Source of the DNA: Daphnia carinata
Lineage: Eukaryota > Arthropoda > Branchiopoda > Diplostraca > Daphniidae
Direction of reading: 5' to 3'
DNA length: 64,000 nt
NCBI RefSeq assembly: GCF_022539665.2
Contig: NC_081337.1
Coordinates: 776,239 to 840,238 of the forward strand
Shown: piece after piece, positions 1 to 42,494 of the stretch
Numbering within the stretch: the first letter of the stretch is position 1
Layout: each line of letters begins with the position of its first letter
Translations under genes and position numbers: made by a program
The notes under the pieces: generated by a model
What the model was told of the DNA's origin: nothing
The model's input: the letters and a program-made list of their open reading frames with translations, nothing else
Databases searched by the model: none

Positions 1-2010
1 GCAATCCTCAGTCAGAAACTCGGTAAATACGTAATTTTGTTATCTAAATATTTCTAAACATTAGAGATTACACGACGGAGAAAACTGATTTGAAAACAAT
101 AGATCAAATAGCTGCGCTAACGAAGTCAACAGTATGTTCGGCTATGCAGTGGGCGCAAAATATGTAGAAAAACATTTTCAAGGAAGTATCAAGACGCAGG
201 TAGATCTACCAATCTATTAAACATTTTTTCCCATATTTACTTAACATATTTTAGTATCAGTTGTAAATAAGCTATTACACTAATCGAGTTAATAATAAAC
301 AAATAAAAACGTTTCAGGTTGAATCAATGATCAAATACCTCAAGGCCGCATTTGTGACATTGATTGACGAAGCCGAATGGATGGATGCTACAACAAAAGC
401 TATCGCCAGAGAAAAAGTAGATGCTATGGTTGAACTAGTGGCTTTTCCAAACTGGATTAAAAAGAAAGAAGATGTGGAGTCATTTTATTCCGATCGGGTA
501 TTTATTTAATGAACCTTAGAATTCTAAATGAAAATAAAAAATAAAAACGGCCAATTTACACTTTAAATAAAAAGGGGCTAATAATTGTCTTGTTGCTAGC
601 CACCCGTCTCTAAGGAGGAACATTTCGAAAACATTCAAAGTGTTAATGCCTGGCTGACGAAAAATGGGCTTATGAGCCTGCGACGTAAAACAAACCGAAC
701 TCGGTAGGCTAAACGATAATCGAACAACATTTTACCACTTGAAACTCTGTTTACATTGTTCCGCAGCAGTTGCAGGAAATAAGCTGAAATTTTTTTTATT
801 CCGTTATATTTCAGATGGATTACTTTTCCTTCAATAGTCAACGCTTTTTACGCCCCAAAATACAATTCTATTAGTATATTATCTTTTGTTTTTCCCTTCT
901 GCATCTATTGTACCTAAAGTAAAGTTAAATTTTTCTAACTAGGTTTCCCAGCAGGAATCTTACAACCACCATACTTTGGGTTGAACGGGAGATCTTCGTG
1001 AGTATGCGATTTTTGGTTAAATAAGATATTTCTGCCATATGATTTCATAAAAAAGCCTCTAACTTTATCGGACATTCAAAATCTAGTTCGATGAATTACG
1101 GTGGTATTGGAGTCGTCATTGGTCATGAAATAACACACGGTTTCGACGACAAAGGTATGGTAGGAAAATGAACTTGGCAAGGGTTTGGCAACTCTCTGGC
1201 AAAGTATACGGGATTCTAAATTTTAGACTAGATTCACCAGACATTTTGGATTAAGATTCGTAACTTGGATTAAGGTTCACACAAGCTGTGGCTTAGGTTC
1301 CAAATGGTTCTTGGAAGGTGTGTAGGAAAATTAAATCAGTTGCCAAACCTTCGAGATTGGCCTTCAACCCATTTTTGTCACATTGACGCCAGAATGCATC
1401 CGAGAAATTCTTTAACTAATCTGTTTTCTATATGTCTGCGTGAGATGTATAGGCCGCCAAAACGATAAGTACGGCAATACTGCTAACTGGTGGACGGAGA
1501 ACACATTGGCGCAATATCAATCGAGAGCAAAATGTTTCGAAGACAAATACAATAATTACCTTGTTTTAAATGGAACTCAAGTAAGAAATTTGATACGTTT
1601 CGAAATCTAGACCTTTCTACAAAAATATCCACGTTCTTTTAATAGAAACATTTTTTTATTTTCAGTTGAACGGCCTTACCACGCTAGGGGAAAATATTGC
1701 TGATTACGGTGGAATACGCGAGGCATTCGTTGCCTATCGTAACTACGTCGCAGCCAATGGAATCGAGTCTGTTCTGCCAGGTTTGGAAAGGTTTACTTCC
1801 GAGCAGATATTTTTCCTATCCTTCGCTAATACTTATTGCGGCATCGAAACTCCAGAAAAGCTTCTGAATCAAATAATGAATGACCCGCATAGTCCCAACC
1901 GTTACAGAGTTATAGGGACTCTCTCCAATTCAGAAGATTTCGTTCGCGAATTTAACTGTGTGCCTGGTACTCCAATGAACCAACTTAGAAAATGCACCCT
2001 TTGGCGCTGA
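1..2010 (+). CDS. neprilysin-like M13 zinc metallopeptidase, 3' part
   Basis: C-terminal portion of an M13 (neprilysin/ECE) peptidase, normally a type II membrane ectoenzyme cleaving small peptides; the 5' end lies outside the window. Phase-compatible exons: about 1-22, 112-199, 318-497, 600-703, 815-873, 943-997, 1087-1154, 1453-1580 and 1666-2010. Visible signatures in order: [14 protein letters not shown], the zinc motif HEITH with GFDD just after it (1087-1154), NWWT, then GENIADYGG with the third zinc-ligand Glu in the last exon. It ends in the family's C-terminal Cys-x-x-Trp-like tail (CTLWR), with the stop at 2008-2010. All internal phases join cleanly, so the visible part looks intact. 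Exon 112-199 appears to lack the Trp-Arg that usually precedes its Cys, so its start is the least certain boundary. Confidence 0.88.
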
Positions 2011-4186
2011 TTCTGTCATTATGTGTTACAAGTTATTCTACAAATAAATTGTTTTCGTTAAAGTGATCGTCACAGTTTAATACTATATAACCGTATATAA
2101 TTTTTCTCATTAGGCATTATTGCTTTAATATTATGGAATGGGCATCGAGAATCAAATTGGTGAAATCAATGATTTCATCTGCACTGATGGTTAATTTGTC
2201 AGCTCAAATCTCATCCAGTTTAAGAAGAGGCCCGTGTATAACAGGCGGCTAATAAATGGTTTTTCATTTTTTTTTGCTCGAACGTGGCTCCTGGCCCATT
2301 TCACACAGTGATAGGCGCTGCTTTTAAATATGATAAAATCAGGGTAAAAAAAAATCGTTTACACGACAAATCCTGGTTATCTGTGTAATGGGGAAAAAGC
2401 TCCAGGATAACTCAAAAACTTTTAGTCTAAGACATCAAATTTTTTCTAAAAAATAAACAGCCTAAATTACTGTTAGTCCAAATTTTTGTACGAAATCCAT
2501 GTCGTACTTCCAGAGGTAGAATTTTTGTTTCATTTGCCCGAGTTCCATTTACGCCCATCTTCATCTATCTTGCTTGGTGCGGATGGAAGCATCATTCAAA
2601 AGAAGTGTGATCACTTTCAGAGCTTCGTAGCGAAGACGTTGGAAAAATCATAACTGTAAAAAATAATATGAGTTAAATGAAGACTAAATAACAGCAAAAG
2701 AAATACTGAATGAAAGATTGCTTAAAAAGCTATATACCTCCTACGCTACTTGTTCTTTTAACGTTAGGGTCCAATGTCCGTTCATAATGGAAGAAGTAGG
2801 GGAGACCGGACCCATCTTGGACAGTTACGATTTTAGTCCATTATCTACCATCCCACTTACGCAAAATTTCGAAAATTTGTTTGAATAAATCTAGAACGCT
2901 CCCGACACCTCCTGAATTTTTTTCAAAGATGATATGTAATTTTTTTTTAAATTTATAACGATTTTTACCTAACGGTGAACTTAGACCGAATCGGCGTGAC
3001 TTTGGGCGGACCCCTGTCCCACTTTGGACGGGGTCAAAAGAGGTAGAATGAGTTGTGTAAAAATTTTGCTTTTATTTCTAGTTTTTGCTGTTAACTTAGC
3101 GAACAATTGAAATGCAATCTTCAAAGAGATTACCAGAAATAAATGACTTTTATTATGCCTGAAATATTTTCATTTTACTGATAGAGAAGACATAAGAGGA
3201 GGCGCAGCCACCACAGTATCGATAATTTAGTTATTTCAATTTATCGATCGATTTCCCTGATTCATTATTTGTAATGTCATGGCTGCGTCAGTTGACGAAA
3301 CTTTGAAATTGTTGAAACAGTTGAATAATACAGAAAAGTATTACATTTTTTTCCAAAATAAAATGTTTTTATGTAAGATTAAAAATATAAATAAGCATTA
3401 GCTATATCATAAATGTGCCGTTAAATATTTAAAACTTCCGCGCTTTGACTTGACTCCTCCCTTGCACGCCCAATTCATGTCCAATACAACACATGCCGTT
3501 TGTACAATTTAGCCCCCAAAAGTAGTTTCACAGAACAACTAATGTGTTTATAATTCAATAGCTAAGATTATTTTGATTTACAAATATTATTAAGAAACCT
3601 CTGCTCTACATACTGCCAACATCTACAAGCGTATAATGATAAAACAACATAGGAAAAAATTATCGACAAAGAACAAAGAAAAATACAGATTTATTCTAAT
3701 TTTTATTATTTGTTAAAAACTCAATAAATAATTTACTCTGTTCAAATAATAAACTCCTGTTGTGGCCATTCGTTAAGTTTCTTAACCAGTCACTCACGGA
3801 ATGTGTGAAGTTTGTACAGAAAGAAACCTTTGGGATGTCTTAACCGACGACGAAGCGTGGTCTTTTCTACAATACTTCACTTACCGCAATGACTGGAGGC
3901 ATCCCTTCTATTTCGAGGAAGGAATTTGGTTCACTGAATGGAGTATCGTACAAAACATTTCCACTAAAGAACCCTGCAAGCCTTGCCAGGTCACTGAATC
4001 CTACCATCACAGTGTTCTTAAGTGTATGTTAAGTAGGAAAAATCTCCCTTCGGTCTGCCCGTCTCACTTTGGGTAAAGTAACATTCAGAACACAAGTAAT
4101 TTGCTTAAACGAATTGGGGAAATAAATTTCTTTTCCATTTGTTAAACTCCTGTTGTGGCCCTTGGTTAAGTTTCTTAACTAGTCAC
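2011..4186. other. intergenic, no supportable gene
   Basis: AT-rich sequence with no convincing gene. A 91-codon frame at 3801-4076 is rich in Trp and Cys and lies between two direct repeats, but I do not recognise it and see no flanking exon that extends it. Confidence 0.4.
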
Positions 4187-4189
4187 TCA
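3751..4189 (+). repeat. pair of 46-bp direct repeats
   Basis: Copies at 3751-3796 and 4144-4189 start AAACTCCTGTTGTGGCC and end with TTTCTTAAC, A/C, AGTCACTCA; only a few bases differ. They bracket a 350-bp segment holding the Trp-rich frame 3801-4076. The second copy stops about 12 bp before the tRNA-like sequence. They could be a small duplication or the ends of a short mobile unit. Confidence 0.7.
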
Positions 4190-5201
4190 TAATTCGCCAG
4201 TGGATGTGTGGCGCAATGGATAACGCGCCTGACTACGGATCAGGAGATTCCAGGTTCGATCCCTGGCAGGTTCATTGAAAACATGGAACGTAAAGAACAT
4301 TGATTGATAATGGGTTTTGAAGCCGTGTTTAACTTCAGGGATGGTGTGGTTCGTATGGCGTCGATTTTTATTCGGTTGTTGACAGGCTATCTCTCTGGAA
4401 GACGCACCGGGTTCAATAAGCTGTTGTTCACTAGGGTGAAATCCATGGCCATCATTTACATTCAATGGTTGACGGGATTTTGCAACAGAAGATGGCCCTG
4501 GCACGATATTTTGTTGTTGATAAGGCTCACTAATACGGCCAATGCTTGTGTTCAATTGGAGACGTGAAATTTCCCAGAAAGATAAACTAGGTAGCATATC
4601 CGATAGCCCGTCCGGCTCGCTTACATAATTTCCCTTTTGAATCGATTGCTGATGGGTATGGTTCAAGCCCAATTGATTTTCTGGTGATTGAAGTGTCATG
4701 AGTTCTGGTTCACTGTCTGTTTCTCTCTGGTGGTAATTAGTTGTAGATTCGTTACTTGTCTCGTGATGTTGTATTGCCCGTGGGCCTATAGGTAAGGATT
4801 CTTCATCACTCAGAGTACCATGGCCACTATCAGAAAAAGACCACAGTGCAGTATCTTGGCTCGTTTGCTGAGTGCGGCGAAACACCGGGCTACTAGCATT
4901 ACCGTATTTTGGGCCTAGAAAAAAAAATTTAATAAAATACGAAAATGATCTGAAAAACAACACTTACCAGTACTACACAATTCCTGTGAGGTTTGAGCTT
5001 CATTTGAGTTCTTCACGTATTTTGGTGGTCGTCCCCTACTTTGATGGCCACGGGTATTTTTGATTACATTTGGTCCAGCACTAAATAAAGAGATTCTAAT
5101 TACCTTTGGGGATCCACAAGCTCAAATTGCAGGCAACAGAAAAACGGCAAATTAGCTGGGGACCGCAGCAAATTAACGAACGCTTGGTGAGAGCAGCACA
5201 T
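4187..5201 (-). CDS. hypothetical spliced protein with AT-hook-like motif
   Basis: Minus-strand model of three exons whose phases agree: 5201-5104 (ATG with an in-frame stop directly upstream), 5080-4968 and 4914 downwards. Donors and acceptors are canonical (GGTAATT, TTTAG, GGTAAGTG, CCTAG). Exon 2 contains SRGRPPK, similar to an AT-hook. Exon 3 is rich in Ser, Gln and acidic residues and has no fold I recognise. The frame runs through the antisense of the tRNA-like sequence to a stop at 4187; that last stretch is probably fortuitous, so the true 3' end is unknown. It could be a lineage-specific nuclear protein or chance. Confidence 0.3.
4202..4274 (+). tRNA. tRNA-Arg(ACG)-like, degenerate acceptor stem
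   Basis: Cloverleaf of 73 nt: D-arm GCGC...GCGC, anticodon arm CCTGA-CTACGGA-TCAGG with anticodon ACG, T-arm CCAGG-TTCGATC-CCTGG. Internal A and B boxes match eukaryotic tRNA-Arg(ACG). The acceptor stem is poor: GGATGTG against CAGGTTC leaves a G-G mismatch and two wobble pairs. It may be a drifting gene, a pseudogene or a tRNA-derived repeat. No intron. Confidence 0.7.
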
Positions 5202-5830
5202 TTAAGGCAAAACAGTTGCCGATAGCAACAAATTGTTCGAAAGAACGAAGGTGGAATAAGCCAGAGAAGGTAAAGGTCTGGATCAGACAAAATCATAATT
5301 CATAATGGTCACTGGTAAGTTTGAAATTATATTTACAAGCCTGTTATCCACAAACACTCGCGGGAGTAGAAAATGCGATGGTTAAGCCTCTGAACTTGAA
5401 TGCACACTGGTGGTCTGAACTAGAATGCACAGACGCATTCAGGACTACCAGCTTTCTTCATTCCCTGAACAGAATTCTATTTATCTCGAAAACATGTTTG
5501 TTATGTAACAATATCTATGTGTTATTAGATGTTAAAAATTCGGTATTTACGACGTCAAAATTTTAACTTAATTTAAACTTAAATTTTATTTTGCTTCTTA
5601 AAATAATTTGTGTCAACTTATTCATTTGGCAACTTCCATAGCAATGTAAACATTGCATTTGGCAGCCATTGTTAGTCTAATGCTTAAGGAAAGACGCTGC
5701 GGTTTATGAAAACAAGGTGAGTTTATGTTGATTAGGATTACATTGCTCTAGACTGAAGGTAAATTTTTTTTTGCAGTTCATCTCATATATATACAGGATA
5801 GGATAGGAGTATAGGAGTGGACATAATCTT
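5202..5830. other. intergenic, nothing recognised
   Basis: Short frames only and no protein similarity that I can see. It ends at the left target-site duplicate of the non-LTR element. Confidence 0.4.
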
Positions 5831-5842
5831 ATTTTGCCAGTA
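5831..5842 (+). repeat. target-site duplication, left copy (ATTTTGCCAGTA)
   Basis: Identical to 11527-11538 at the other end of the non-LTR element. Flanking bases differ, so the duplication is 12 bp. Confidence 0.85.
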
Positions 5843-6048
5843 GTAGTAGTAGTAGCTTTGAGTGCGGCTGGTGCGTCTGCACCAGCTTCCCGGGGTTGCC
5901 TAGCAGTCCCTTACGCACGGGTGATTGTTGTTTCAAGTTTTGTTTTAGAGTTGTTATTGTAGTTTTGTATCGCTTGTTTGTTTGTTGTTGATTGCTTTAG
6001 TTTTTGTTAGTTTGTTTTGTTTTTTCTTGTTCCGAGTGTCTTCGATTT

Positions 6049-9000
6049 TTAGATGCGATTTGTGAGATCGCTCTTTTTGATTTGGTTGAGGATGATGTTT
6101 CTGAGGGCGGCTTTATGTTTTGTTTCTACTTCTTCAGTGAGGCCAAGGATGTTTGATATTGTTAGGTTGATGTTTTCCCTTTGACAGAAAAGGATTAGGT
6201 CGGTGCGCTCTTTACAGTAAGTCGGGCAATGTAGGATGACATGTCCCACTGTTTCGATTTCCGGACATCCGTTCGGGCATAGGGGGTCTATTAGTGGATC
6301 ATATTTGCTGAGATTGTAGTTTAGTTTGGTTTTGCCAGTGCGAAGTCTGTGGAGGATTAGGGTTTCTTCCGTGTTTCTTCCTATTTCCCAACTTTTCATC
6401 CCCAGTTTAGGCCAGATTGGGTTCCACCTCTTGAGCAATTTCATGTCGCACATAAGTTCGCTGTTCCATCCTTTTTTCATGATGGCATAGATTTCATTTA
6501 TGGTGAGTTTGTTTTGGATGGTTTCCGCTCGAGGGTTGGTCAGAGTTTCTTTGGCTACCCCGTCTGCTATTTCGTTGCCCTCGATGGCTGTGTGACTTGG
6601 GATCCAGAAGATCGTTGTTTCAATCCCTGCTGCTGCTAGGTTGCTGGCAGACCTGTTGATGCTGAGGAGGACACTATGGGTACGCCAATTTTTGTTGGCA
6701 TTTGCAATTGTGAGGATGGCCGATAAGGAGTCCGTATATATTGTTACTCCGCTTTCCGTTGCATCGTAGCAGATGTCGAGGGCTTTGTTGATGGCATTTA
6801 GTTCTGCGGACAGGATGGAGGAGTACTTTTTTAGCTTCCAGCCTTTTTGTAATTTGATTCCGGGTACGTAAATTGCGGAAGAGGCGTTTCCAGATTTGGG
6901 GTCTACGGAGCCGTCAGTGTAGGCTACGAGCTCTCCTGGTTGTAGGTTGTCGAGGTTTTCCAAGAACTGGTTACGCGCTAGGTGTTGGGCGCTTGTGGCG
7001 GTTTTTTTGTCAATCTTTAGGCGACCGAGGTTGATTTTGGCAAATTCCCACGGAGCCGGCGGGTAGAGGTTGGTTGGCGCAAGTTTTTCCATCAAATGGG
7101 GTGTGTTTTTTTCGATGGCTGCCATTGACATATGCCAGGATGGTTTATAAGAGGTTTTGAATTTGTTTATTACTTTCCAGCATGAGTTTATGACTTCTCT
7201 CGTGGGATTTTCCGTGTCTCGCCAGATCCTAGCTATGTAGGCTTGAAGGATCCACTTGCTTCTGTTTATTATTGGTTCCACGCCTGAGTCTTTGTAAAGG
7301 GCCGCTAGGGGGGTCGTCTTCTGTGCTCGAAGCACCGTTCTTAATGCGCTATTTTGCACAATTTCAATTTTTTTCCTTCTGTGTTTTGTTGCACTGGTTA
7401 TGGTGAATGCACTGTAGTCGGCTAGGCTTCTCACGAGTGCTTTGTAGACTGAAGTGAGGGTTTGCAGCTCAATTTCATTTGGTTTGGAGGCTAAAATTTT
7501 TAGTAGGTTTGCATTTGACAGCATTTTGGTTGCGAGTTCCTCTAGATGGCACTGCCAGTTTAACTTAGCGTCGAAGGTAACTCCTAGAAATTTTGCTTTG
7601 TTGGCAACCGGGATTGGTTGGCCTTCTATATATAGTTTCGGAGCTTGTTGTGGCGTGTGTTTTCTGGAGAAGACGACAAGCATGGATTTGTCGATCGACA
7701 TTTTGAATCCCCATTTTTTAGTCCAGCTGCTTACTCGGTTGCAATATTGTTGCATTCTTGTTTTTGCTTTGTTTACGTCGGCAGTTTGGAAGTGACTTTT
7801 GATGTCATCTGCAAAGAAGCTAGTGTTATTTTCAAGGCGTGGCAAGTCGGCTATCATTACGTTGAAGAGAGTTGGACTGAGTACTGAGCCTTGGGGTACT
7901 CCCAGTTCCAGAGGCTTTCGGCTTGACAAGGTATCATGAATTTTTACGTACACGTATCTATTTTGCAGGAAGCTGATCAGCCATCTCAGGATGTTGCCAT
8001 GCAATTTGGCTGTGGTTAGTTTGTGAATAAGTCCGGTGATCCATGTTGAGTCATAAGCTTTCGAGATATCCAGGAAAAGAGCATAAGTATTTTGATTTTT
8101 CGAAAAGCCTTGTTTAATTTCGGTTTCCAATCTTATTAGGTTGTCTGCTGTGCATCTGGATTTTCTAAAACCGGATTGTGACCATGGGATGAATTTTTGC
8201 TTTTCCAGGAACCATATGATTCGTTCATTGACCATCTTTTCCATAAGTTTTCCTACACATGATGTGAGGGAGATGGGTCTGTACGATGAGGGTAAGTGTT
8301 TAGGTTTACCTTTCTTGGGTATGCAAATAACGACTGCCTCTTTCCATTGTTCAGGAACTATCCCTTCAGCGTATAGCTTATTCATGCAGGTAAGGAGTTT
8401 GGCTTTGTTTTCACTTGAGAGTAGTCTAATCATTTGGTTAGACACACCGTCTTTTCCTGGGGCTGTGTTTTTCAGGTTATTTATTGCCCTTTCGAATTCT
8501 TGGGGTGTAAATGGTCTGTCAAGTGGGTGCGGACCTTCTGCTTCTAGAATTCTTGAGATTTCCTTAATCATGTCCCCTTCTCTACGTTGCAGTTCGAGCA
8601 TTGCTCGGTCGTCGGTTGCCGTGAAGTAATTCACCATGGCTTTGGCGATCTTCTTAGGGTCGGTGGTGATGGCTTTGTTTTCAAGTTCGATGGAGTCTAT
8701 GGAGCTGATCCCCGCTTTCTTCCCGTTCATTCTGCCTATGAACTGCCAGACGTTTTTTGCATTCCTTGAGGTGAGAGTTTTTGTGAATTGCTTCCAGCTT
8801 TCTCTTTTGCTATTTCGGAATGTTTTCCTTTGAATTGCTTCTGCTCTGTTCAGATGGGTTTTGAGCTCAGGGAGCTTGTATATTTTCCACAATCTCCAGG
8901 CCTTTAAGGTTAGGTTGTGGGCTTTTTGGCACTCTTGGTTCCACCAAGGCTTCCTTGGTTCCGCCCTTTTGGCTGCCCTGGGCTGTCGAAGGTGTTTGTC

Positions 9001-32731: not shown

Positions 32732-35700
32732 TTATTTTACTTTTTTCTCTTGCCGATTGTCAGTTTCCAAAAGATGAGCATTTCGTTTAATGAATACAAG
32801 CATGTCAAACAATATGGGTTTTATCTTGTTTCTTTTTGCTGACAAAATGTCAACTGCCGTGCTAAATGTACGCTCAATATTAGCGGAAGAACATGGAATT
32901 CCCATGATATCCCTTGCAATTGGGGCTAAGGCTAGGAATCTATGTTGATTAAGATTCCAATATTCACATGGACTAAACTCAAGACCAAACTGACCCTTTT
33001 CATTCACAATTGGGGGTTCTTTCAGATAGTTATCAAATTCATCGAGCACTTTCGACACACCCCTTGACAAAGTTCGTGGGCGAACGAGCACGCTGGCAAG
33101 TAGAGGACGGATGGATTGTCTTGCTCGCTTATGAACAGGTGTAGCTGATGGATTTTCATTTGCTTTACGTGTTCTTTCATCTTCAGCACCACTGCCAGAG
33201 TTGTCTTCATTGTCTCCCCCTTCTTCATTACCACCTAAAATTTCAAATAATAAATTCAACCATATAAAACAGCTTACCTAAGACACAAATCTGCATAAGA
33301 CGCATGAATGTTAAAGTGGTTTTCATACCGACTGTACGATAGCGCAATCTCAGTAATTCCTTAGCAGTAGCAATGACGTCTTCTTCGTCTTCTCCGGCTG
33401 CTGTTATCCACGTTCCCTTTATTCTTGGGTCAAGCAGTGATCCTGCAATAGTTAAGAAAGTTAAAGAAATAGTATCATAACCATATCAGTGACTTCAACG
33501 TTAATACATACCCAATACAAAAAAGGTGTCTTTTGTAACCCATCCCAATCGTTTAGTGAGAGATGTGCTTAATTCTTCTGCCATGCTTTTGCAAGAAATT
33601 ATGAATTTTGCTTCGTGATTCATTTTTGGGTCCGAAGAACATTGGTTTACCAAATCCAAATAAAATGGAATTACCAATCCTACTGTTTCCGTATCCTTCT
33701 GGAAAACGTCTGTTGCAATTTTGAAGGGCTCTAGTAGGGTAACGAACTCTTTTAAACATTTCAGTTGCAGAGATGAAAGTGATCCGTGAGCTTTGCAAGC
33801 ATTCAGTTTAGACTGAAGGGTTGGGTCAATATCGATGGCGTTGAGGAAGTACTTCACCATTGAAAATTGCGAATTCCATCTAGTAAGATTCATCATTGGT
33901 ATTTTAAATCCGACGGAATCTACCAGAACCTTAGTATCTACGACACTTCGCCGAACCCCTCCTACTATCTTACACAACAAATCCAGGGCCTCCGAAACTA
34001 ATTTCTAAAAAAAATTGAGAACTGGTTAGGGGACAGCAAACAAGGAAATTGAAACAATGAACTGATACTTACATCGAGTGCCTTAAGTCCATCTTTAATG
34101 ACTAACTGTGCCTGATGAGGCAAACATCCTGCGTGAGACGAAGTGGCTGTGACAAAACCCGTCTCGTTGATTTTCCAGCTGTTTTCTTGTATCAGCTCTG
34201 CGAGGTCAATTTCTAATGCAGATACTAGATTTTCAATGACGATATCTTCATTTTGCGAACCGTCAGCTGATGACGTACACTCTAAGTATTCTGGAATCAA
34301 AACGTAATTTGGTACTTCCATCCCGGCTTCGAGTTCTAGTTCAATGAATTCATCTTCCTTGTCTTCTCTGATGAAATTTGAGAGTTGTAATTGAAATGCA
34401 GCAGTCATGTTTGACGCATTATCAGTCACAGTGCGAACAACCTGGAAATATAAATGAATCATTATGCAGAATCGTAGAAATACAAAGATAAGGTACTAAC
34501 CTTTCCATTCAGTTCCCAGTCGGAAACGACGCATTCGGACTCTGAGAGAATTGCTGCGGCTGTGTGATGTTTTGGCATCTCCTGCATGCTTAAAAAGCAG
34601 GTAAATGGAACGTAGTCGGCAGTTACTGAAGAACAAGAGACCCCCATAAATCCAGTCATGCTGTTTGATGACCAAAGATCAAGCATAATGGTAACAACAT
34701 CACAAGACTTCAGCACTGTTTTTACTACTTCCGCAGTCCTTGAGTAGATTGATGGTATGATACCATCTCTCATTTTTTCATAGCTCGGAATTTGATATGT
34801 AGGTGCGAGAAATGAGATCAGCTTCCGAAATCCCTCTCGTTGCACTATTGTTAAAGGCAAATTGTCTGAAACAATCATTTCGCCTAAAAGAGTGTCAATT
34901 TTCTTTTGAGTATCTTTTGGTATTTTTGGTGTTGCTATGAAATTCTTCATGGAAGACTGGTTTGTTAGGTTTGGTTTCCCTCCTCCTTTTACTTTGTTAT
35001 AATCTTCTTCGTGGCATCTTCTTAAATGTCGGATGAAATTGGAAAAGGAATCTGCATGTCCGTGGTGATATTTCCCGTTGTTGCAATACTTACATTGCGC
35101 GAAGACCTTTCCGCTTGCGTAATCAGTATGCCAGTTCTTCCAGCAATTAGTTCTCCAGAGAGGCCACTTCGTTTGATCAAAGGTTGGCGTTTTCACAGCG
35201 TTTTTTGGTAGTTCTACTGGGATGGATCTTACTCCCTTGTCCAGAACATCTTCGTCTTCAGATGACAATCTATCTCCATCAGGAGCACTTGCCTCCCCTT
35301 CATATTGGGTTTCTGTAATAGTGTCTTCTTCCTCCTCTTCGTACAATAATCCCACATAGCACATCTCAGCCGTCGGATGTCCGATCCATGGCCGAATGTC
35401 CGTGTCTTCTATGGGCTGGCCCACGGATGTCCTTCGGCTAGTCTGGTTGGATGTCCGATGGATGTGCAAAAATGATGTCCTAACAACATCCCTCGAGCAG
35501 ACAAGAAGATCTTCAACAAATTTTTTTGAATATATTGAAAATAAAAATATTTTTAATAAATTTTTACTAAGTAGTTGCATTTAACTCTAGAACCGTACAT
35601 ACCTTTTTTTGTTGTAGTGTGTAGGGAACACACAACCCTGAATGAAAGTGACGGCATACAAACAGAATTATTTAAAAGATCCAATCTATTTTCGTCAACT

Positions 35701-38700
35701 TGTAATAAAAAAAAAAGGTGAGGCAGTACGAGGGGGACATAGCCAACTGTCGTTTGCTCATTATGGACGGAAACATCGAATTAACAACCATGGACTACAT
35801 CCTTGACCTCTGCCGCTCTACCAGAGTTCCAGGTAAGACCCCAAACAAGTTTCTGGTAAAACTACTTTACATTTAAAAAAAAGAGAAACATTACAGCTCA
35901 CTCAACGATTTAAATTTAAGCAATGGACGGAGGTGACATTGTGGAACGGAATGATGGATAAAGAGATTCACAGTTGCAACTGTTTGTAGCCCAAATATTT
36001 GAGGGTGAGGCACACATTTTCAGATGTAAATCTGGCTGCCGTGTGATTGCATCTGAACAACTAGATTGCTGTTGGCTTTCTTGCGTTCCACTGTCCTCTT
36101 GGCGTCCTATTTAGAATAGTTTGCTTGGTTTAGAATTATTTCATGGTGAATTGCATGATGAGAACTTACGAAGTAGAAACTGGCTGTGGCAGCCATTCCG
36201 ATGAACATGGCGATTACGGCAAACGCGTACGACCAAGAGAGGTAGTTGAAATTTGGGTAGAGCATCCAGTCACGTCTCCAACATTGTCCACCAAAGACAG
36301 CCACCAACAGGAAGAGGCAAAAGGATTTCAAACCATTCATTAGTGCACAGGCAGACAGGATCTGCCACTGGTATCGGAATGTGAAGTTGAGCGGCCAACG
36401 AACAAGAAGCATTGTTGAGGCAATGTGGGCAGAGCAGGAAAATATCAAGGCCAGCGTCATAAAAGCCTGCACTGCCATCAGCCAACCTTTGGAGAGCAAA
36501 TGAAAGAGTTGTGAAGTAGCCGGCAAAGGAAAGTGTGACTCTAAATTTACCTGGCAGCAACCATTCCCAAATCACAAAGTATGTCTTGCTGAAGACATAG
36601 TGGCAACCATCAACGAGGTCATCAAATTGGTAGTTTGGGTAACGGAATCTGCTAAAACAAAACTCCCAGAGACCCATGTTCTTGAACGGGCTGTATGTGT
36701 CTTGCCAAGAGACCAGCCAATGTGGACTGTAAACAAAGGGTAAATTGGCATATGAATGTTTGACAGAGAATTGGTTGGGATTACCTGGCAAATGACATAA
36801 CCAACAGCATAAGTGATATAAAAGACAGAATGGATCCCAACATCAGTAAACCTGTTAACGAAATAATTTCATTCACGTCATGTTGACAGTTACAGGCGCA
36901 AATCCCACTTGTCGTATTTGTGAAAAACACATATAATACATGGTATTTAGAAAAATAATGGCCGCCTTTTTCCCCTATATATTAAATCAGCATTGTCAGA
37001 TAACTTAAATGGCAGTGATATGTTCCAGCAGTTTATTAAATTTAAATTTACTTGAAATTACTATTTAATATGTAACGTAAAAACATCTACTTAAATTTCA
37101 ACAGTGTTTTTATATAAGATAACTGTTTTATTAATAATAATTATTTGATAAGCAATTTTAGGAGAAGATACCATTTACCTGTGTTTAGGGAATGAACACC
37201 AAAAGCAAAAAAAATGGTAGTTCCGACTTCTTTCGAATGGGGATCTAGCGATTCAGGCATTCGTTTGGTAGCTGCCTTTGAGTCATGTGCTTTGTATGGT
37301 GTGGTTTGAATTTTTTGAAAATTAGCAGAACTTGGATTTTAAAGTGTGCATGAAAGACTTGCGAAACGTGTTCATCGCGCTGCCCAGCTGCCTTGCCGTA
37401 CCCGCCCAGTTGGATTACCGAACCTGCCCAGTTGGCTTACCGGTCCTGCCCAGCTGCCTTGCCGTACCCGCCCAGTTGGCTTACCGGTCCTGCCCAGCTG
37501 CCTGGCTCTTCCAGCTCCCCTGCTGCCATCATTCTGTGGATAAATGGATTCCCAAAACGTAAGTTAATCTTAACCGGAATTTACCTTTTCAATATATTTT
37601 TCCATTTGAATTCCCGATTCCTTTTTTTACAATCGCCTCTTTAAGTTCGGCTTTTTCAGTTATTCCATTCCGTCGTCGCAAAAATTTTTTTCTCGCAATT
37701 GGAGCTTTTTTTTGCAGGGTATTTATTTTCCTTGTCCAAGTTTATACTTTCTTATAGACATTTTTTCTAACGCTAACTTTTTGAGCTTACCGTTATGAGT
37801 AACAATGGAATTTTACCGAGCTCTCGAACAAAGAGGCGTCGGATTCAGAAAGATTTACAACAACTTCGTTTAAGTTTAGTTAATGTTGAGGATATTGAAG
37901 TAGTAAGGGAGTCGTCGGACGAAGAGCGTTTTCCAAACGGCAATAATGGCATAGATTTTACTGAGGAAGAACACGCTGAAAATCTTTTCAGTGGTTTCGA
38001 CGACGAGGTGTTAGCTTCTACTGAAGACGCATTTTCTATCGATAGCGATGTTTTTCCGGTTTCTTCTGAATCTGAATCTGAATCGACAGTTGACAGGGAC
38101 GATGGTGCACAACCTGATGAAAGTGATTACGATGAGGAACACAACGGGTCGCATAATTTACGCCATTTGCTTGCTTTATGGGCAGTTACATGGGGGGTTC
38201 ATCAAAACGCAATTGATGCATTGCTAGCCATACTCCGTTTATTTCAATGGGGATTAGATTTACCAAAAACCTGCCGAACCCTTCTGAAAACGCCTCGCAA
38301 TGTCGACGTAAAATCACTTTCTCCCGGCAAGTATTACCACCATGGAATTTTAAAAGGTCTGGAATCAGTTTTAAACGTTATGCCGGCTTGTAGTGCTCTT
38401 GATCACGTCGACATTTTTGTTAATATTGATGGTCTCCCCATTTCCAAAAGCAGCGGTGGACAGTTTTGGCCAATTTTAGGCATCATCACCAATGCTAAAT
38501 CTAGAAAAGTATTTCTTATTGGACTTTACCATGGTGATGCCAAACCTGATTCCACAGAAGAATACCTTACAGACTTTATTTTGGAAGCTAAGGCTTTAAG
38601 TGAAAGTGGTTTTATTTTTCATGGCCGGCGCTTATCATTCAGAATATCCGCATTCGTATGCGACGCGCCTGCGCGTTCGTTCATTTTGAATACTAAAGGC

Positions 38701-41700
38701 CACACAGGTTATTTCGGTTGTGGGAGATGTATCCAACAAGGGGAATTTGAAGGTAGGGTAGTTTTCTTGGAAAGAAATTCGACTCTAAGAACTGATTACT
38801 CCTTTAGAAACCGCATTTATGAGGAGCATCACCATGGTGATAGTATTCTTGAGAACTTAGATTACCTTGATATGGCGAGGGATTTCCCAGGTGATCCAAT
38901 GCACTTAATTGATTTAGGGGTGACGAGAAAGCTTTTATTGACGTGGATTAGAGGTCCACTCCCAAGAAGACTTCACAAAAGTTTAATAGACTCCATAAGC
39001 TCCCGCCTGGAAACTTTAAGCAAATTTATTCCAAGAGAATTCGCACGGCGTACGAGATCATTGAAGTTTGTTGATCGCTTCAAGGCTACAGAATTTGGAT
39101 TATTTAATAGCTGTGTTGGTCCTGTGGTTCTTTTGGGGATTTTGCCCAATCGATTGTATAATAACTTTATCGTTTTTCATGTTGCAGTGCGAATTCTGTC
39201 ATCATTCGCGTATTGCATAACGCACAATGATTATGCAAGGGAATTATTAGATTTATTTGTTAGGGAGTGTGAATCAATTTATGGCACATACTTCTTGTCC
39301 TTCAATGTCCATTCTTTGATTCACACTTGTGATGATGTTTTGCGTTTTGGTGCTTTGCCAAACTATTCAGCCTACGCTTTCGAAAATTATCTTTTTTCTT
39401 TAAAGAATCTTTTGCGCAAGTCCAATCAGGCATTGCAACAGGTAGTTAAACGTATTCTGGAAATAGGACAATTCCAGAATGCGTGTTACAATGCAAAATC
39501 ATCTAAAACTGGACGTTTTTTTAAACAACATGATAGTGGTCCTTTAATTCCCCACCTCGTATTTTCCAAGCAATTTAAGGAAATGCAATTGGGTCCCTGG
39601 TTTCTAAGTTGTAAGGGACCTGATCATTGTGTTTATCTTGATTCTTCTATTGTTTTGGTCGAAAACATCATTCGCGGCAAGAATGGTGATTTCATTATTG
39701 GCAGGCGTTTTCAAGTAAAACGTTCACTCTTCTCTTATCCTCTACCGTCGTCGTCGTACGAAATATATACGGTGGGAGCTATATCAGAATTACTTGAAGC
39801 GTGGCCAGTGGCTGAAATTAAATGCAAGGCGGTCATGTTGCCAACTTTTTCGGGAAACAGTTGCGCAATGGACGGTACGTTTTCGGTTTTTCCTCTTTTG
39901 ATGGAGGCACACACTTAGGGAGTGAAGCAATTGGGGTGAAGGGGGGAGTAATGAACTTTATTCTGATTTTACTTTTCTTTTATTTAGTCTAAACTTTTTT
40001 ATTTTTCCCTTTTTATTGCGCAATACTCTCTAATTAGACCGGTGTAACGATACACATCCACTAGGAGTAGAATAAATGTACGATGTTGCAAAAAATAGGG
40101 GTGGTGCTATAAGCTGGTGAGCTACACCGTCTTTTTTTTGTTTTGTTTTTTATTGTGGAATAGCACCATTTCTTATTATTGGAAGGGCCGGACGACGATC
40201 CATGGGTGCAATCAGTTCCTATTTCATGGTACGACAATGGATTCTGCTGGTGGCCTCCTAAGTCCAAGTCTAAGGATGTGTCCCGCTTTATAAACTTAGG
40301 CTACGAACCTAACAAGAAAACTTGGGAGTCTTATCCAGCTAGGGTCAGGAAAACCTACGGTATTTTTTTATATTTTTTATCTCTACTTTTCGTTAATTTT
40401 GATAAAAATTAGCAACATATGCTGAAGCTAGAAGACATGAAAATAAAGTAGTACAAAATGAGGACATCGCAACAACAGAAGATGAAAAGGACAGGAGAAT
40501 CAGGAGAACTAGGAAGATCAAACTCCCGTTCGACAACAGTGTTTCGAATTCAACAGTGTTGTGTTGAAGTCAAGATATAGGGAAATTGTGTCTTCTTCGG
40601 ATGACGACAGTTGTCCTATTCCTCCAGTTCCTCCACGTAAAATAATTTTAAGTAGGTTTATTAATCTTTACTTTCAATCAATTCTGCGTTAATTCAATGT
40701 ATTATTTTTTTTTAGATAGATTGAGCGTTGCTGGAAGCCCGGCCAATAAAAGTGGGAATGGTGGGAATGCACTACCAACGTGCTCCGAGCTTATGCTTCC
40801 CCATTCAAATCCCGATGCGCAATCAGATGATAGTATTGACCATTATTCACCTGCAGGTAATATTTCGTTTGATTTATAGTAATTTTATTAATAACAACTA
40901 TTAATAATACACTGTTTTCCTTTTCAAATGAAAGGCACATCCAAGTCCATTACATGTACAGCTCCACCTGTTTCTGTAGTTCCAATAAGAAGCTCCACTA
41001 CGACTAAAAGGAGTAGCTTTGTCGAGATCAGAAATGGAGGTAAGCTTTAAAGTTTAGATTTTTATTAATTTCATTTATATATTTTTAATATACTTTTAGA
41101 ATCCCGCGACGAGTTTCTTCAGCGTGGCATTATAACCATTGGCCATGGCACACGCGACAACAACGCCATCAGTGCAGCTTTACTGGAACGTCTCGATCGT
41201 ATTGAGACTGCGTTTGTCGCCATGAGAAAGTCAGATGGAGATGCCGACGAGGATTTCATGCAAATGCTGCCCCTCAACTCTATGGATGATTTTTACATAT
41301 TCAACGACGATTTGAAAAGCAAATCAATGTCACAACGTTTGGTAATTTTTTTTAAATTATTAAAATTTGAATTAAATTAAACTTCAGGTGTTGTCTGTTT
41401 GTTTGTTTTTTAAATGTTTTCTAGAAAACACACCTGATCGCAATAGGGGGAAACACCCCAAGAACAATTGTTAGATCGATCGCCCGGCGGCTTATGACCA
41501 ACGAACTAGGCAAATCTTTCAGCTGGTTTGGACATCGTAATAACAAAAAGCTAGCCGATACCAACATCGGAAAAGTGATAATTGGTATTTATTTTAAATA
41601 TTCATGTTATCCGTTTCATTCGTTTATAATACGTATTGATCTTTCAGCTGCATCGGTACGTAACACGCCATTGATTACAGAGGCAGATGTTAAATCAGCC

Positions 41701-42494
41701 ATGATTGACATGCTGCGACACTGTAAAGACAAACCTCGCACGGTCCCTGTCCTATGAGTCCCATCATCATTCCATTCATCATCCATTCACAAAGAAAAAC
41801 ATTGTTTTTTTTTTATGTTTCTCGTCTATATTCACAGTCAGTCACAGTCACACAGATACAGTCAGCCCGAATAATGTTGAAGCAATGTTTTGTTTTTGTT
41901 TTTGTAGTCAGACAAATGATTTCTTTATGAATCTGTTTTCCTTTTTTTGTTTTTGATCTGCATATGGTTGTGCAACACAAGGTTTCTCATGTTCATTAAT
42001 CTGGTCATGTTTCAATACAAAGATCAAAAAATAACAACAGTCTTTTCTATTTCACGATTTTATTTTATTAATCAATAAAACGAATGAATATGCAGATATC
42101 CCTTACATGTCCAAATTATAGCCGTAAGAAGTCCGGTCAGATATCCTTCGGATGTCTGACGGCGCTGTTTTGGGCGGTCAAAACCAACAAAAAAAACATC
42201 CGTCGGACATCCAAATCGGATTTCGGGCTGTCCGACGGATGTCAACAGGATGTACCTTATATCCGACCTCAACATCTAGCGGACATCCCACGGCCAGACT
42301 TGTGCTATGTGGGATGGATCCTGAATGGAAGGGGCTATTGCACGGTTACATTCTCTAACTTGCGATGCACCTCTTGATGCCCCTCTTGATCCAGCTCTTG
42401 ATCCAGCTCTTGATCCAGCTCTTGATCCACCTCTTGATCCACCTCGTGATCCTCTTGAAGCACCACGCTTGCTGCCACTACCTGGTCCACCCAT
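32732..42494 (-). CDS. hAT transposase, interrupted by the nested element
   Basis: Minus-strand exons: 42494-42314 (Met, then RGASRGS-type repeats), [insertion 42313-35351], 35348-34501, 34441-34073, 34004-33512, 33442-33329, 33234-32732. Phases agree throughout, including across the insertion. A BED-type finger lies in the second part (CKYCNNG...FIRHLRRCH). Core motifs include VTIMLDLWSS and VTDNASNM (catalytic Asps) and NLTRWNSQ. The C-terminal dimerisation segment has SSANIERTFSTA. Apart from the insertion I see no stop or shift. With the insert present, transcripts need to splice around 7 kb of foreign DNA. Confidence 0.85.
36061..37260 (-). CDS. claudin-superfamily four-TM protein (pasiflora-like)
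   Basis: Complete five-exon gene: 37260-37179, 36851-36785, 36726-36551, 36486-36170, 36123-36061; 705 nt, 234 residues, all GT-AG and in phase. TM1 lies near residues 30-48. The first extracellular loop has the family signature W...MGLWEFCF...DGCHYVF (W-GLW-C-C). EWLLPGWLMAVQAFMTL leads into TM2; TM3 and TM4 follow, then a short basic tail. Drosophila pasiflora proteins of this kind act in septate junctions. The gene lies wholly inside a DNA transposon, divergent from the transposase with a promoter region between them. No lesion is visible. Confidence 0.8.
37378..37515 (+). repeat. minisatellite of GCCCAGCTGCCTTGCCGTAC type
   Basis: Roughly six units of 20-22 bp (CTGCCCAG followed by CTGCC or TTGGC, ending in CCGTAC/CCGGTC/CCGAAC). 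It falls between the divergent claudin-like and transposase genes; a short related piece occurs near 62010-62040. Confidence 0.7.
37795..39918 (+). CDS. transposase of the DUF4806-associated family
   Basis: 707 residues in one uninterrupted frame from ATG 37795. An acidic N-terminus is followed by the core seen in proteins usually annotated as transposase domain-containing: LPKTCRTLLKTPR, FVNIDGLPISKSS with GQFWPILG, VCDAPARSF then GHTGYFGCGRC, DFPGDPMHLIDLGVTRKLL, and a C-terminal NVHSLIHTCDD motif. Conserved Asps in NIDG and CDAPAR are plausible catalytic residues. The intact frame suggests recent activity. Divergent from the claudin-like gene and followed by the DUF4806 gene in the same orientation. 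Confidence 0.8.
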   Translation: MSNNGILPSSRTKRRRIQKDLQQLRLSLVNVEDIEVVRESSDEERFPNGNNGIDFTEEEHAENLFSGFDDEVLASTEDAFSIDSDVFPVSSESESESTVDRDDGAQPDESDYDEEHNGSHNLRHLLALWAVTWGVHQNAIDALLAILRLFQWGLDLPKTCRTLLKTPRNVDVKSLSPGKYYHHGILKGLESVLNVMPACSALDHVDIFVNIDGLPISKSSGGQFWPILGIITNAKSRKVFLIGLYHGDAKPDSTEEYLTDFILEAKALSESGFIFHGRRLSFRISAFVCDAPARSFILNTKGHTGYFGCGRCIQQGEFEGRVVFLERNSTLRTDYSFRNRIYEEHHHGDSILENLDYLDMARDFPGDPMHLIDLGVTRKLLLTWIRGPLPRRLHKSLIDSISSRLETLSKFIPREFARRTRSLKFVDRFKATEFGLFNSCVGPVVLLGILPNRLYNNFIVFHVAVRILSSFAYCITHNDYARELLDLFVRECESIYGTYFLSFNVHSLIHTCDDVLRFGALPNYSAYAFENYLFSLKNLLRKSNQALQQVVKRILEIGQFQNACYNAKSSKTGRFFKQHDSGPLIPHLVFSKQFKEMQLGPWFLSCKGPDHCVYLDSSIVLVENIIRGKNGDFIIGRRFQVKRSLFSYPLPSSSYEIYTVGAISELLEAWPVAEIKCKAVMLPTFSGNSCAMDGTFSVFPLLMEAHT
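40155..41757 (+). CDS. DUF4806-type accessory protein of the same transposon
   Basis: Exon chain from about 40155: SWYDNGFCWWPP...RVRKTY (ends near 40359), TYAEARRHENKVV (from 40413), RLSVAGSP, GTSKSITC, ESRDEFLQR...MLPLNSMDDFYIF, KTHLIAIGGNTPRTIVRSIARRLM, and a last exon ending at 41757. The C-terminal half matches DUF4806 (LPL-x-S, then GG...VR-I-R-LM...W-G). Near 40560 the frame ends at TGA while a downstream frame (RYREIVSSSDDD) continues, so a small frameshift or unrecognised splice exists there. The first exon is not identified. Such proteins commonly neighbour this transposase family; their role is unknown. Confidence 0.6.

Follow-up and report, generated by a model that had tools for sequence, protein, structure and literature searches.

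A DNA transposon of Daphnia carinata with captured exons of the claudin-superfamily gene pickel and its chromosomal donor

Here, we describe a DNA transposon of 6,963 bp in the crustacean Daphnia carinata, which holds a copied piece of the host chromosome with exons 2-5 of an ortholog of pickel, a gene of the claudin superfamily. The element lies at positions 35351-42313 of the window, by which we mean the whole analysed stretch of 64,000 nucleotides (NCBI RefSeq assembly GCF_022539665.2, contig NC_081337.1, positions 776,239 to 840,238, forward strand). Very probably, a recently active cut-and-paste transposon took a 1.32-kb piece from contig C6, comprising these pickel exons and one exon of a kinase gene, and then spread to at least five sites. 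In the following, we document the element and its donor, show in which direction the copying ran, and describe how the loaded copies spread and which lesions they bear. The cargo is most likely a passenger without kept function.

The element and its copies

A first-pass annotation of this DNA had proposed a transposon between matching termini, and the element was indeed confirmed by exact terminal inverted repeats (TIRs), by a target site duplication (TSD) and by alignment with five other cargo-bearing copies. Its 13-bp TIRs are exact, oppositely oriented matches of CCCACATAGCACA, flanked by the 2-bp TSD AT (Table 1). In the searched genome of 108 Mb, CCCACATAGCACA has 72 exact matches (34 on the plus and 38 on the minus strand) versus one match for a reversed-pattern control. 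Among these matches, 24 convergent pairs less than 14 kb apart were counted, and 21 of the pairs, namely the window element and 20 others, constitute the set of elements read in this study. Of the 21 elements, 18 are flanked by a 2-bp TSD, for which the chance is about 2e-19 if the sites are independent. In addition, the window element shows subterminal repeats of the GGATGT type, with five and six motifs in the terminal 250 bp of its two ends versus 0.6 per kb inside.

A genome search with the claudin-like region resulted in 11 matches, made up of six cargo-bearing elements, the donor locus on C6 and four places that match the query in its transposon part only. The cargo-bearing elements (the window element, L010, L019, L011, L012 and L016) are located on C1, C3, C5 and C7 and occupy five insertion sites. 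Their TSDs at these sites are AT, TA, AG, AA/TT and CT, as expected of a multicopy Pack-TIR, a TIR transposon that has taken up host sequence. Five of the six copies have both TIRs and a TSD on either side of the composite; L019 has TIRs but no matching TSD. Full length is retained by three copies, two of them with an open transposase, and L011, L012 and L016 are 3.07-kb forms that lack the transposase. Pickel exons 2-5 are open in two of the six copies, both full-length and 99.4% identical to each other, and the three short copies share a 1-bp deletion causing a frameshift. L012 and L016 lie at different sites and share 99.97% identity along 3,070 bp, so that movement is recent. Apart from L019, the cargo-bearing elements differ by only about 0.6-1.4% from the window element. 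L025, L037 and L038, which also belong to this close subfamily, are without cargo in the parts read.

The cargo of L019 (C7:213015-219936) has scrambled exons 2-3 with many mismatches and small gaps, which are either real or an assembly fault. A RefSeq gene model of D. carinata, LOC130701875, was found as a match to the cargo protein and maps to L019. It was set aside as support for expression because it lies on this scrambled copy.

Donor locus and capture junctions

The donor of the cargo is located on C6 (C6:1631975 region, L035). This locus matches the captured segment of the element (35604-36923) only, with 94% identity, and is therefore a parental copy of internal host sequence as found for other Pack-TIRs. 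There, the element is absent and pickel is nested within an intron of a gene for a PfkB kinase (PF00294, scoring 63.1 bits when the exons are joined), with kinase exons on either side. One of these kinase exons is also present in the element, on the strand opposite to the claudin gene. The native exon 1 of pickel starts 14 bases past the captured edge, and its peptide matches a protein of Daphnia galeata. As a kinase exon was co-captured and the native exon 1 lies just past the edge, copying ran from the chromosome into the element and took exons 2-5 only. A genome search for pickel, in which 25 candidates were scored, revealed one chromosomal copy and a distant paralog with 30-39% identity per piece.

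At the position of the insert, the element sequence survives in the cargo-free elements L025 and L037, which read CCGTACATAC/ATGGTATTTAG unbroken. In the loaded elements, the C6 piece and a filler of 16 bp stand between the CCGTACATAC and ATGGTATTTAG halves, and no element bases are lost there. Separate from this junction, a stretch of about 750 bp in L025 is missing from the loaded elements. Sequence additional to the loaded form in L025 was considered as another cargo and rejected, since it recurs in two further places of the same subfamily (C9:9410208 and C7:1660989) and is thus taken as element sequence.

The captured gene

The cargo comprises four spliced exons at 36020-36851 on the minus strand, all of which are open in the window, and its protein matches the Pfam family Claudin_2 with 48.8 bits against a cut-off of 29.1. 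The spliced claudin-like host gene that the first-pass annotation had placed inside the transposon is thereby confirmed. A protein search resulted in 175 matches, and among the best 120, which were listed, at least ten arthropod proteins are named pickel or pck. The closest listed relative, from D. galeata, is 93% identical over 90% of the query. In Drosophila, pickel (pck) has a role in septate junctions. A pasiflora-like gene had been suggested for comparison; the named relatives among the listed matches are pickel or pck and not pasiflora, a statement on names, as the two genes were not compared directly. Compared with pickel of arthropods, the cargo shares the Claudin_2 domain but lacks the native N-terminal exon and the upstream region.

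This absence bears on the initial description of a complete gene of five exons in phase, without lesion and with its own promoter. Only exons 2-5 belong to pickel, and they are open in the window and in one further copy; the native exon 1 and the upstream region were left behind on the chromosome. The exon 1 proposed initially is transposon sequence, as its DNA is also present in the cargo-free L025. It was further considered as a conserved exon of the transposon and rejected. Fourteen more distant sister elements resemble it in their DNA at 71-78%, but none of the frames inspected in them keeps the peptide, and the GT splice donor is kept in four of the 14. The peptide was also seen in none of 18 relatives of the cargo protein checked among the 120 listed. 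As pickel exon 2 contains an in-frame ATG of its own, four transmembrane (TM) segments could still be made from exons 2-5.

Genes of the element and its superfamily

The transposase predicted at first pass was found as an open reading frame (ORF) of 707 amino acids, which is open in the window element, L010 and L025 and broken in L019. The window transposase matches no Pfam family. In a protein search that scored only candidates sharing most words with the query, 412 relatives were detected, the best-scored 120 of which were listed. The closest among these is an ENA sequence with 68% identity, and the closest named one is from Daphnia magna (54%). A Pfam scan of seven of the 120 listed relatives revealed weak matches to DUF4218 in five, all below the cut-off. 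One of these five also matches Transposase_21, again below the cut-off, and two of the seven show no match at all.

Elements of the EnSpm/CACTA (CMC) superfamily have termini beginning with CACTA or CACTG and a TSD of 3 bp, or 2-4 bp in the wider group. The element described here resembles them in its clustered subterminal repeats, seen in the window element, and in the weak matches of some transposase relatives. It differs in ending with CCCACATAGCACA instead of CACTA, in its TSD of 2 bp and in a transposase without a Pfam match. On the basis of the weak DUF4218 and Transposase_21 matches, we call the element putatively EnSpm/CACTA-related, by its transposase only.

Downstream of the transposase, a multi-exon accessory gene is present. 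Two joined exons match DUF4806 with an E-value of 0.034 (14.9 bits against a cut-off of 25), and a shorter piece matched no family. Its exon 2, the only exon compared, carries a frame lesion in the window copy, is likewise broken in L019, and stays open in both L010 and L025. Thus, of the DUF4806 gene announced initially, a DUF4806-like gene with a frame lesion remains and the family label falls below the cut-off. Between cargo and transposase, a GC-rich tandem repeat with a period of 22 or 44 bp is located at 37380-37503, and a similar sequence is visible in the cargo-free L025. The insertion of the element interrupted an ORF with a marginal BED-zinc-finger match.

Table 1. Features of the transposon and its surroundings in the window
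Feature	Position	Strand	Basis or remark
Insertion target: ORF with marginal BED-zinc-finger match	34462..35350	-	20.8 bits against cut-off 20.6
TSD AT, left copy	35349..35350		
Whole DNA transposon, 6,963 bp	35351..42313		TIRs, TSD, alignment to copies
Left TIR CCCACATAGCACA; GGATGT-type repeats cluster in terminal 250 bp	35351..35363	+	
Captured host segment, 1,320 bp	35604..36923		94% identical to C6:1631975 region (L035)
Co-captured single exon of PfkB-kinase gene	35718..35832	+	PfkB confirmed on joined chromosomal exons
pickel exon 5, coding part and stop codon	36020..36106	-	
pickel exon 4	36170..36486	-	
pickel exon 3, extracellular loop with W-GLW-C-C motif	36551..36726	-	
pickel exon 2, first captured coding exon, TM1	36785..36851	-	
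Filler of 16 bp at right capture junction, ending in ATAC and repeating the ATAC before the left junction	36924..36939		Comparison with L025, L037
Exon 1 of first-pass annotation, transposon-derived, only mechanically in phase	37179..37260	-	Comparison with sister elements
Transposon-derived stretch; its counterpart in L019 forms the first two exons of RefSeq LOC130701875	37485..37605	-	
Transposase, 707 amino acids, open	37795..39918	+	ORF; weak DUF4218 or Transposase_21 in some distant relatives
DUF4806-like multi-exon accessory gene, approximate span by eye	40187..41755	+	Exon 2 frame lesion in window copy
Right TIR	42301..42313	-	
TSD AT, right copy	42314..42315		

Other host-gene pieces in sister elements

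Sister elements hold pieces of other host genes in the arm equivalent to the one with the cargo in the window element, namely of uex/CNNM, an immunoglobulin (Ig)-domain gene, a Ser/Pro-rich gene and transportin. L013 carries exons of uex/CNNM with an in-frame stop (PDB match 'Unextended protein', 5e-53), the donor of which is located at C8:5224828-5225529 with 90% identity; a remnant of this piece of about 40 bp was found at nine places. A 1.6-kb piece of the Ser/Pro-rich gene is present in L020 and L026 and has its donor at C3:12811085-12812667 (90%). The stretch including this piece occurs at nine places in all, among them L017 and L027. L009 contains 1.9 kb of the Ig-domain gene, with an I-set match above the cut-off. 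The piece matches C3:10307709 (92%), taken as the location of its donor, and C3:10123624 (91%), where a further Ig exon lies beyond the captured part; a third match, at C4:391011, includes transposon sequence as well and is therefore another copy of the element. No long transposase frame remains in L009, L013 and L026. An exon of transportin-1 (PDB match, 5e-31) was detected in five of the 21 elements, and of 14 matches examined for its donor none is demonstrably the chromosomal gene.

Judged from these pieces, capture is recurrent in the superfamily, and the shared arm may be the only place where an insert spares the genes of the element. L020 is layered in its positions 480-2402, where a transportin exon, a 39-bp uex remnant and the Ser/Pro-rich piece lie side by side. 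An insert of 5.17 kb in L015 (C5:6009066-6016338, element positions 928-6094) was rejected as a further capture. Its edges show a 9-bp alignment overlap, a probable TSD, and 801 bp of its sequence are repeated in full length at 15 other places with 98-100% identity, so that it is a separate nested repeat. As this insert holds an exon of GABA-transaminase (ABAT; PDB match, 7e-14), a second, unrelated repeat family may carry a host-gene piece.

Discussion

The capture probably started with a break inside a copy of the element that was repaired with a template switch to the pickel locus. Template switching in break repair fits the arrangement of the insert, which lies between two bases of otherwise unbroken element sequence with a 16-bp filler and without loss. 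The loaded element then transposed to at least five sites, partly as the short form, which would have to be moved in trans as it has no transposase of its own. Because the cargo lies head-to-head with the transposase, any transcript would begin in transposon sequence and represent a chimera with pickel.

Selection was compared over exons 2-5 between the chromosomal gene and five cargo copies, L019 being left out for its scrambled exons. Among the cargo copies there are five nonsynonymous and no synonymous changes, against one nonsynonymous and 31 synonymous fixed differences between cargo and chromosome (Fisher p 1.4e-5); together with the shared 1-bp deletion, this is suggestive of a cargo without constraint after capture. 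The kinase exon of 115 bp has one fixed nonsynonymous change, and two nonsynonymous and one synonymous changes occur among the copies. Most simply, the bulk of the divergence from the present chromosomal copy would have arisen under constraint, either before the element took up the piece or in a different allele or lineage, and this constraint would since have been lost.

Several observations weigh against our account. The fixed differences between cargo and chromosome are one nonsynonymous versus 31 synonymous, so that either the divergence would predate the capture or the cargo would have been constrained for a time. The changes among the copies are few and partly shared by descent. Exon 3, compared with L035, shows silent differences in 22 of 58 codons versus nine of 156 in the other exons (p 3.4e-8), and in the two introns flanking it just 4 of 58 and 5 of 64 sites are changed. 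The search for another pickel paralog from which exon 3 could stem found none beyond the distant one, and no proposed step explains the excess. Furthermore, the 2-bp TSD fails in L019, L021 and L022, the first of which bears the cargo. L019 shares the flanks of the window element as read, with 98% identity over 503 bp on the left and 92% over 511 bp on the right, and the two look like one insertion that was later duplicated with its flanks; hence the count of five sites for six copies.

That the cargo is an ordinary local host gene lying by chance between TIR-like sequences would agree with its splicing and with the open exons 2-5 of the window. This idea is refuted by the copies at other sites: six copies extend from TIR to TIR at five sites, the donor lies on another contig and a stray kinase exon is found inside the element. 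In the first-pass annotation, a local gene was to be assumed if relatives of the element never carry it and an orthologous chromosomal locus without these TIRs does; the gene is in fact present in related elements, and its locus on the chromosome is a donor separate from them. The pickel segment might instead be a separate mobile element nested in the transposon, for which its sharp edges and the short ATAC direct repeat could speak. The two ends of the captured piece are not linked by an inverted repeat, however, the sole pair lying within the left 130 bp in a T/A run, and in the genome search the segment was found outside the element only at the donor gene, which makes nesting highly improbable.

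A cargo kept and translated as a pickel paralog, with an advantage to element or host from its spread as has been suggested for Ssk-FB4 of Drosophila, could account for the two full-length copies with open exons 2-5, for the nearly silent difference from the chromosomal gene and for the gene model on L019, and Ssk-FB4 itself is a published precedent (PMC8277862). We regard it as distinctly unlikely, since the short form, which did spread, has the same frameshift in all three of its copies, exons 2-3 of L019, to which the gene model maps, are scrambled, the changes within the cargo are 5:0, and the two open copies are too young at 99.4% identity to show selection. More room is left, at somewhat unfavourable odds, for a capture that is old or took place in another Daphnia lineage, the loaded element having entered the present genome through introgression or horizontal transfer. 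Such a history would not conflict with the capture and spread favoured here. It would explain the divergence of about 5%, as the window copy differs from the donor at 27 of 556 noncoding sites (4.9%), far more than the other cargo-bearing elements except L019 differ from the window element, and the stem of the cargo shows constraint as in a chromosomal gene. An old divergent allele of the same species would serve equally, and among the listed transposases, with 68% and 54% as the nearest, no recent transfer partner is seen. Beyond the capture and spread that we favour, the lineage could be a standing vehicle for gene capture, in which host exons are repeatedly copied behind a divergent promoter, replaced or layered, and expressed as chimeras starting from 5' exons of the transposon, the open copies yielding a mobile pickel-like junction protein able to reach the membrane. 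This extension appears rather unlikely to us.

In plants, cut-and-paste transposons are well known to capture genes. In animals such capture is thinly documented (PMC8277862), and a search of titles and abstract openings in the open-licence literature found nothing on this element family or on gene capture in D. carinata. The present case shows that transposons shuffle host genes in an animal. Donor, cargo-free elements and full-length and short carriers exist together in one crustacean genome, with several host genes in the corresponding arm. Thus, the route of capture and the question whether transposons feed new genes to animals become open to direct tests in an animal amenable to clonal culture.

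Comparison with known systems

Animal Pack-TIRs have been surveyed in 100 reference genomes, with a report of 370 cases, 87.2% of which belong to hAT or TcMariner, and a median capture of 224 bp; four cases are multicopy, and the insect genomes contained none (PMC8277862). Like them, our element is a TIR transposon that encloses host sequence, the parental copy of which lies at another place. It differs in its capture of 1.3 kb, in being multicopy and in the several host genes found in one superfamily. For plants, a study on Pack-TYPE elements, which uses the term CACTA 58 times, describes TIR elements that likewise capture and spread gene fragments (PMC8903248). The plant elements are non-autonomous, whereas the arthropod element partly retains its own transposase.

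The closest counterpart is Ssk-FB4 of Drosophila melanogaster, a Pack-MULE carrying Snakeskin that was described from fly populations (Tan et al. 2021, PMC8277862). A septate-junction membrane protein as cargo, initially considered new, therefore has a precedent, and a second such gene is a curious finding that may or may not be due to chance. Both are animal TIR transposons that carry the larger part of a gene for a septate-junction membrane protein, presumed as such in the present case, and both occur as several copies, each site having its own TSD. Both show extra bases at one capture junction (45 bp in FB4 and 16 bp here), and amino-acid changes exceed silent ones among the copies in both. 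For the capture by Ssk-FB4, template switching in break repair was argued as well. In contrast, FB4 is non-autonomous, whereas three of the six cargo copies described here are full-length and two have an open transposase; the TSD has 9-10 bp in FB4 and 2 bp here. The capture by FB4 included the region 5' of the gene and left out no more of the gene than about 200 bp of its 3' untranslated region, whereas here exon 1 was left behind, and the pickel cargo is known from its sequence alone.

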